Source: Halolamina salifodinae
GTDB lineage: Archaea; Halobacteriota; Halobacteria; Halobacteriales; Haloferacaceae
Length of the DNA stretch: 64,000 bases
Assembly (NCBI RefSeq): GCF_017874235.1
Contig: NZ_JAGGLC010000005.1
Location: 124,001 to 188,000, forward strand
Direction: 5' to 3'
Shown: piece by piece, positions 35,741-61,244 of the stretch
Layout of the letters: the number at the start of each line of letters is the position of its first letter
Numbering within the stretch: the stretch's first letter is position 1
Translations under genes and position numbers: made by a program
Notes under the pieces: model-generated
Databases searched by the model: none
Told to the model about the DNA's origin: nothing
The model's input: the letters and a program-made list of their open reading frames with translations, nothing else

Positions 35741-35960
35741 CTGGGATGCGGTGGCGCGAAGCGTTCGCGTCGACGGACGCGAACCGAGCGCGAGGGATGA
35801 GCGAACGGAGTGAGCGAATCGGCTGGGGAGGGTGTGGGCTGTGTGGTGGGACTGAAAGGGGCCGGGTGCTCCGCGAACCCCGACGAAGCAAGCACCGCAG
35901 CGAAGTGAGGAGCGCAGCGAGTCGCGGGAGCGGAGCCCTCGGGGGCTTTCTCGGTGTTGC
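35741..35960 (+). repeat. composite dispersed repeat upstream of the S9 peptidase
   Basis: The left part (about 35741-35850), read on the minus strand, contains CTCCCCAGCCGATTCGC, GCTCATCC and TTCGCGCCACCGC in the same order as the plus strand at 38025-38100. The right part (about 35852-35955) runs from ACTGAAAGG through GTGCTC-GCGAACCCCGACGAAG to GGGGGCTTTC and resembles 60985-61150. No coding potential is credible. It is probably made of two decayed palindrome-rich elements. Confidence 0.6.
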
Positions 35961-36065
35961 TGGCCCAATCAGCCACGACACACCTGAACCCACCACCAAA
36001 TCCCCATAGCGGCACACACAGCCCGTGCCCGAACGCCTTTGGCCGAACCCCCACCACACATCCCC

Positions 36066-60806: not shown

Positions 60807-60864
60807 ACTGTCAGCTGTTCCATCTCTCGACCGTGCCGATTGAACGAGACCGCCACAGACGCCG

Positions 60865-61196
60865 GGCGGTGTTCAGATAATCGGGTCAAAAAGGAAACTG
60901 CATCTGTGAATCAGCCGGCATTCCTGGTGGCCTGCGGAAATCGGAGATTTCCGGGCGACGGAAACGGCTCGCCGTTTCCGTAGATTGAAAGGGCGAGGCG
61001 TTCGCCGGGCGGCGCCGCCGCCCGGCGGCTAGAGGGAGCTCTGCTCCCTCCGTGCTCGGCGAACCCCGGCGAAGTAAGCACGTGAGCGACTGGAAGGAGC
61101 GAACGCGCACAGCGAGCCGCGGGAGCCGAGACAGCCGAGGGCTTTCAGCTGTTCCCACCACTTCTGCTGGTAGAAACTCCTTATCTGAACACTACC
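60865..61196 (+). mobile_element. MITE-like element, about 332 bp, with TIRs and target-site duplication
   Basis: Left end GGCGGTGTTCAGATAA (60865-60880) and the reverse complement of the right end GGTAGTGTTCAGATAA (61181-61196) match at 14 of 16 positions. The 9-bp sequence CAGACGCCG lies directly outside both ends (60856-60864 and 61197-61205), as expected for an 8-9 bp target-site duplication. The GG...TGTTC terminus and the duplication length recall IS6-family elements. The interior has no transposase; it holds a chain of short perfect hairpins and a dispersed-repeat segment also seen near 35.9 kb. Confidence 0.82.
60936..61050 (+). repeat. hairpin chain inside the MITE-like element
   Basis: There are four palindromes with tiny loops. 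60936-60952: 7-bp stem GGAAATC, loop GGA. 60958-60981: 10-bp stem ACGGAAACGG, loop CTCG. 61004-61026: 10-bp stem GCCGGGCGGC, loop GCC. 61032-61050: 8-bp stem GAGGGAGC, loop TCT. A similar chain lies at 63141-63267. Confidence 0.85.
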
Positions 61197-61244
61197 CAGA
61201 CGCCGCACCACACGCGTTTTACCCCTTCACCGACAAACCCGTCC

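Follow-up and report, generated by a model that had tools for sequence, protein, structure and literature searches.

The insertion at the locus

The window, a stretch of 64,000 nucleotides from Halolamina salifodinae (contig NZ_JAGGLC010000005.1, positions 124,001 to 188,000), contains a 332-bp MITE-like insertion at 60865–61196, located upstream of a radical SAM gene. The insertion is bounded by the terminal inverted repeats GGCGGTGTTCAGATAA on the left (60865–60880, plus strand) and GGTAGTGTTCAGATAA on the right (complement of 61181–61196, minus strand), which match at 14 of 16 positions, as the first-pass annotation of this DNA had stated. Directly outside both ends lies the 9-bp direct repeat CAGACGCCG, at 60856–60864 and 61197–61205, likewise as described there, and the interval originally given for the element, 60856–61205, is correct for the insertion together with both duplications. 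When the window was scanned for 9-bp duplications next to inverted ends with at least 12 of 16 matching positions, 150 to 1000 bp apart, 60865–61196 was the sole structure recovered. None of 60 simulated windows contained 14/16 ends with a 9-bp duplication. No transposase ORF is present inside 60865–61196.

The interior is dominated by hairpins on the plus strand. A hairpin pair (60935–60953 and 60958–60981) is located between CCTGGTGG and GATTGAAAGG, a position without hairpins in compact relatives. Next to it lies a conserved folded core, GATTGAAAGGGCGAGGC...GCCGAGGGCTTTC, at 60983–61146, which is recognised by the covariance model described below with 76.1 bits (E 5.6e-15). The closing helix of the core is formed by GAAAG (60987–60991) and CTTTC (61142–61146), then GGC/GCC. 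Further in, CTCGGC (61055–61060) pairs with GCCGAG (61125–61130), leading to an inner helix with GA/GA steps. Two variable hairpins (61003–61027 and 61031–61050), inserted into the core's outer helix, are missing from compact relatives. Folded as RNA, the MITE reaches -161.2 kcal/mol (z = -4.8), and no shuffled sequence folds equally well.

The first-pass annotation considered the insertion a genuine transposition event and suggested looking for a second copy, for an empty site and for an IS6-type element with these ends. All three exist. The second copy, elsewhere in the window genome (G000) at approximately G000:C6:140782–141113, is 98% identical over 330 bp and is flanked by its own 8-bp duplication, GCGCGGCC. 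The empty orthologous site was found in the same-genus genome G005 and reads GAACGAGACCGCCTCACGCCCCGCACCACACGCG, where the window genome has GAACGAGACCGCCACAGACGCCG, the element, and CAGACGCCGCACCACACGCG; other members of the genus are likewise without an insert 5' of the radical SAM gene. Comparison of these genomes thus demonstrates insertion of the MITE at the window site with a 9-bp duplication. Shorter, diverged relatives of the MITE are located at G000:C5:60780–61046 (267 bp) and C4:240525–240742 (218 bp), each with one perfect end and a decayed right end, which suggests that the family is older in this genome than its two near-identical copies would imply.

A probable IS6-type mobiliser

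The end pattern GGNNNTGTTCAGATAA, with at most one mismatch, matches the genome 13 times, 12 of them exactly, compared with 0 matches for the reversed pattern as control. Two exact matches bound an intact IS6-type element of 697 bp (G000:C2:466796–467492). Its intact ORF encodes a 213-aa transposase that matches Pfam DDE_Tnp_IS240 and the NCBIfam IS6 model NF033587 (185.7 bits against a cut-off of 125; 7.8e-55), and it contains the archaeal signature E--F---K-R and W---F (PMC6807381). The right end of the MITE is identical to the right end of this element. Autonomous IS6-type elements in G005 and G002 (63–66% protein identity) carry the left end GGCGG... and the right end GGTAG... exactly as in the MITE, while the element in G049 (67% protein identity) has an identical left end and a right end that is one base off. 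Autonomous IS6-type elements of the genus thus possess both ends of the MITE.

Several IS6-type elements of the relatives are flanked by target duplications, either of 9 bp (GGAGTGATC, GCGCCCGGT, CGAGCGAGT) or of 8 bp (GCGCGAGG, GGTACTAG), and the 9-bp duplication of the MITE is therefore normal for the group. Published values are 8 bp for the IS6 group and 9 bp for ISH15 (PMC6807381). The intact copy in the window's own genome is without a target duplication and may thus have undergone rearrangement. At a distance of approximately 780 bp from it lies a second 3' fragment of an IS6 transposase gene with the same right end, an arrangement (G000:C2:465863–467492, L027) that suggests a local rearrangement between IS6 copies.

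Mobilisation in trans by an IS6-type transposase, as already proposed in the first-pass annotation, is strongly supported at the sequence level by the matching asymmetric ends, the length of the duplication and the intact partner in the same genome. An IS6-type transposase expressed elsewhere in the cell would recognise the ends of the MITE and copy or move the unit. The MITE and the IS have only about 16 terminal bp in common; a deleted transposase gene is consequently rejected as the origin of the MITE, in line with the earlier view of the interior as a set of hairpins.

A widespread family of folded cores

With the MITE as query, its interior (mostly query positions ~190–282) was found dispersed in the genomes of 14 of 59 genera. 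The copies follow a common order, GGAYTGAAAGGGS ... CTCGGCGAACCCCGGCGANGYAAGCAC ... GCGCAGCGAGCCGCGGGAGCCGAG ... GGGCTTTC, and 23 compact copies, which align over approximately 110 nt, were used to build a covariance model. In the window, this model detects a second copy at 35849–35950 (E 8.9e-22) besides the core of the MITE. The whole genome contains at least 18 copies at E <= 1e-4. Overall, the core is present in 103 of 147 relatives and 44 of 59 genera; about 70% of haloarchaeal genomes in the sample thus carry it. Copy numbers per genome are lower bounds: species of the genus hold between 1 and 21, and values in the order as a whole start at 0 and reach at least 25 in several genomes. When 393 genomes from across the phylum were sampled, the 67 positives all belonged to Halobacteriales, and among the matches listed in a scan of public genomes all loci are haloarchaeal.

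Viral contigs and phage records contained 0 matches to the core, and a virus-borne element was rejected on this basis. Rfam gave no match to the copies of the relatives at a threshold of E 0.1. For the copies in the window, Rfam returned chance-level matches far below the gathering scores, none of them to RF02656 or RF02657. An omega-RNA of IS200/IS605 or a PATE was rejected as an identity of the element, given the missing RF02656/RF02657 match and the presence of inverted ends and a duplication. The same applies to an SMR of Haloquadratum, as the ends are IS6-type ends and a duplication is present. In the openly licensed literature, no earlier description of the core, its motifs or the link to pNRC100 and an OB-fold gene outlined below was found. 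Widespread and strongly covarying as it is, the family is thus absent from Rfam and from every paper located.

RNAalifold, applied to a MAFFT alignment of the 23 compact copies, predicts 30 pairs, 22 of which retain pairing through changes in both partners, and this fold was confirmed against shuffles and slid partners. Across 100 copies from public genomes, the paired fraction of cells is 97.1%, compensatory changes affect 25 of the 30 pairs, and 601 cells are doubly changed. The covariation of this set is 0.536, compared with 0.026–0.046 for slid partners, and 0 of 500 shuffles scored as high. Having been fitted to the model, the 100-copy alignment is biased in favour of it; A1, an alignment made without such fitting, gives a consistent result, with a covariation of 0.429 against 0.036–0.080 for slid partners. 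The predicted fold of the core is thereby established. Among the 14 copies bounded left and right by IS6-type ends, 98.3% of cells are paired and the covariation is 0.498, while the largest value for a shuffle is 0.137. These copies are folded as well as the others, which indicates that selection on the fold also acts on copies borne by MITEs. At paired positions, G-U occurs 82 times and A-C 16 times, and this excess identifies the strand that folds.

Forms and genomic context of the family

The family occurs in several forms. Of the 79 monomers, 15 are bounded by IS6-type ends at both termini, usually at a distance of ~40 or ~52 bp to the core, compared with 0 in control stretches; one example (L125) is flanked by the duplication GATCCGTGC. 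Most family members are without recognisable IS6-type ends, and IS6 is therefore a vehicle for part of the family rather than a full explanation of it. In many genera, two different cores are joined 5' to 5' across a spacer of ~35 bp. In G084, such inverted dimers have IS6-type ends of other flavours (e.g., AGTAGTGTTTAGATAA) and duplications (TCGAACCG, TCAGCGAC, GGTGCGTGA). Dimers of non-identical cores around a short dyad were noted at L117–L123 (G084), L130, L146, L163, L187 and L214.

A three-domain form of ~190–270 nt (typically ~225) adds a conserved 5' part and a G-rich linker to the core. Its fold comprises 45 pairs, 31 of them with compensatory changes. The second family member in the window is of this type (35753–35975, plus strand) and is without IS6-type ends. 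It lies between two divergent genes, one for a MATE-type transporter and one for a prolyl-oligopeptidase-like protein, both named by eye from their translations, and has orthologous copies in G003 and G005. At the orthologous loci of G000, G003 and G005 that hold three-domain copies, the flanks are ~80–84% identical at the nucleotide level, and the core has diverged less than the surrounding spacer.

Some copies contain extra small hairpins inserted at fixed spots, and the MITE of the window has four of them. A near-identical double-hairpin insert of ~52 bp, TTCCCGTGAGCGAAGCGAACGGGAGCCAGCGAGRCGCGAAGCGTCTCGCGTG, occupies the same spot in copies at G000:C4:35096, C1:230246 and C6:24146 (L074, L075, L078), and other species lack it at the orthologous loci. 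The insert may be either a very small mobile hairpin or the result of gene conversion among copies.

Of the dispersed copies, 63 out of 70 lie outside predicted genes. No clear bias in orientation or gene context was observed for them, and a cis-regulatory element or terminator was rejected for this reason, despite the largely intergenic location. A TATA-like box accompanies 2 of 196 dispersed copies, and there is no excess of T-runs. Dispersed copies hence do not resemble separate RNA genes, and an independent transcription unit at these sites was rejected.

A plasmid locus beside an OB-fold gene

A BLAST search of plasmids with a three-domain copy matched 50 haloarchaeal records. In 9 of 11 plasmid records examined, a core-like match and a gene of 286–300 codons lie ~500–600 bp apart in divergent orientation; the other two are exceptions. 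The gene product is annotated as a 'DNA-binding protein' and shows a weak OB-fold match. The non-coding region of ~650 bp that extends from the core to this gene is highly conserved and ends in the folded core. The gene for the OB-fold/RPA-like protein occurs on approximately 196 plasmid records, including pNRC100 of H. salinarum; plasmid regions of this kind were catalogued as L309–L314, L316–L318, L320–L349 and L350, the last being pNRC100 144098–150994. At 30 loci of the genome set, the motif GCCCGGAATGGTCGGTCGCGA (at most two mismatches) is present in 28 and a strong core match in 15.

No Rfam match was obtained at the plasmid OB-fold loci. Both the OB-fold partner gene and any exact or near copy of GCCCGGAATGGTCGGTCGCGA are missing from the window genome. 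A role of the OB-fold protein as an anti-phage defence component was rejected, as there was no PADLOC match. We infer that the family and the plasmid region share a common descent. The plasmid region is likely to be the source or a sister of the mobile core, with the direction presumed.

Interpretation of the fold

The window element is best explained as a non-autonomous MITE of IS6 type (ISH14/ISH15/ISH29-like) whose cargo belongs to a folded family distributed throughout Halobacteriales, with a probability of roughly 0.8. The early guess that the element might be a vehicle for structured DNA or RNA has thus held, and it is stronger than could be known from the window, as the interior belongs to a family that covaries across the order. 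It is rather probable that the core is selected as a single strand, in the direction GGAYTGAAAGGG...GGGCTTTC, and most likely as RNA. The excess of G-U over A-C at paired positions and the fact that the same core ends a conserved plasmid region argue for RNA. However, a preference of G-T over A-C would be expected from a fold of single-stranded DNA as well, and dispersed copies lack a TATA-like box, a T-run terminator and an orientation bias. If RNA is involved, the MITE would represent a prokaryotic analogue of a SINE, namely a mobile unit built around a structured-RNA domain and moved by a DDE transposase. A more specific version is put forward tentatively: the cargo could be the mobile 3' domain of a large haloarchaeal structured RNA, the full-length form of which lies divergent to the plasmid OB-fold gene; IS6 would have spread this domain repeatedly through chromosomes in a SINE-like manner, and three-domain copies would have become fixed.

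The missing promoters, terminators and orientation bias fit a fold that acts at the DNA level, as a single-stranded or cruciform structure in replication, transposition or chromosome organisation, for which RNA is not needed. The recurrent 5'-to-5' dimers also point in this direction, as one transcript could not read both cores. Such a fold is a possible but less probable explanation, since the long asymmetric layout and the conserved unpaired motifs (GAA, GYAAGCAC, the GA/GA steps and the G-rich linker) are RNA-like, and the conserved non-coding region next to the gene of a nucleic-acid-binding protein terminates in this same core. An ordinary MITE with passive filler, in which the hairpins are functionless chance palindromes of GC-rich DNA, is hardly credible. 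GC hairpins abound in the intergenic DNA of haloarchaea, small extra hairpins are gained and lost between orthologous loci, and MITEs of Haloquadratum with interiors unrelated to their partners are known (PMC3119063). Nevertheless, the sequence of the core is conserved and 25 of its 30 pairs covary order-wide, including in copies with IS6-type ends. Covariation refutes passive filler for the core; for the four small inserted hairpins of the MITE, the passive-filler reading still holds.

The distribution of the family could also reflect a service to the host, with three-domain copies as domesticated RNAs at fixed loci and the MITE as a by-product. The orthologous copies in G000, G003 and G005, with a core that is better kept than the flanking spacer, agree with this. 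It is nonetheless doubtful, as copy numbers vary widely within the genus and across the order, and the gene context is not fixed. Mobility of the core family itself, either PATE- or SMR-like or derived from IS200/IS605, with IS6-type ends that are secondary in some copies, is rather unlikely. The sequence adjoining the L120 copy presumably resembles an IS200/IS605 right end and also ends in GGGGCTTTC, and IS6-type ends are missing from most copies. Transposase-free PATEs and SMRs are known in haloarchaea (PMC3119063). Against self-mobility stand the lack of any match to haloarchaeal omega-RNAs or other Rfam families up to E 0.1, the IS6-type ends on both sides of 15 of 79 monomers compared with 0 in controls, and the finding of no other defined termini.

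Comparison with known systems

By itself, the MITE is a further example of an established element type, and an IS6-type MITE, MITEHarch3, is already listed in ISFinder (PMC6807381); the part worth following up is the folded cargo family. Like the archaeal IS6 elements ISH14, ISH15, ISH29 and ISHarch12–14 (PMC6807381), the MITE and its relatives have ends of 15–17 bp that mostly start with GG and duplications of 8–9 bp, as well as a partner of ~697 bp with a DDE transposase of ~211–213 aa that carries E--F---K-R and W---F. The conserved covarying fold of its interior distinguishes the MITE from these insertion sequences and possibly from MITEHarch3.

The MITEs, PATEs and SMRs of Haloquadratum walsbyi are likewise short, transposase-free mobile repeats, and the MITEs among them share only terminal bases and duplication length with the partner IS (PMC3119063). 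PATEs and SMRs differ in having no target duplication, and PATEs also lack inverted ends. In the text of PMC3119063 that was consulted, no cross-genus conserved RNA-like fold is described for these repeats. The haloarchaeal omega-RNAs, or sotRNAs, of IS200/IS605 (RF02656, RF02657; PMC12558985) are also structured RNAs tied to halobacterial mobile elements. The present family differs from them by its lack of an Rfam match and by ends of IS6 type instead of IS200/IS605 type.

If the core acts as RNA, the family would constitute a new class of archaeal structured RNAs, and its carriage by a MITE would offer a clear counterpart of SINEs in prokaryotes. Should it instead work as DNA, the family would be a remarkable instance of a conserved fold in single-stranded DNA. 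In both cases, the family accounts for part of the previously unexplained hairpin-rich intergenic DNA of haloarchaea, and model strains allow it to be tested because the plasmid form is present on pNRC100 of Halobacterium salinarum.

OLE, ROOL and GOLLD are long conserved structured non-coding RNAs that are often found on mobile DNA, some of them with a protein partner. The plasmid locus is similar to these, and it differs by the lack of an Rfam match, by its candidate OB-fold partner and by an occurrence restricted to Halobacteriales as searched. SINEs, such as Alu, which derives from 7SL RNA, and the tRNA-derived elements, are non-autonomous units around a structured-RNA domain that are moved by a foreign enzyme. 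The MITE resembles SINEs as a non-autonomous unit that surrounds a putative structured-RNA domain and would rely on the enzyme of another element, but this enzyme would be a DDE transposase that works on DNA ends, and transcription of the MITE is putative.
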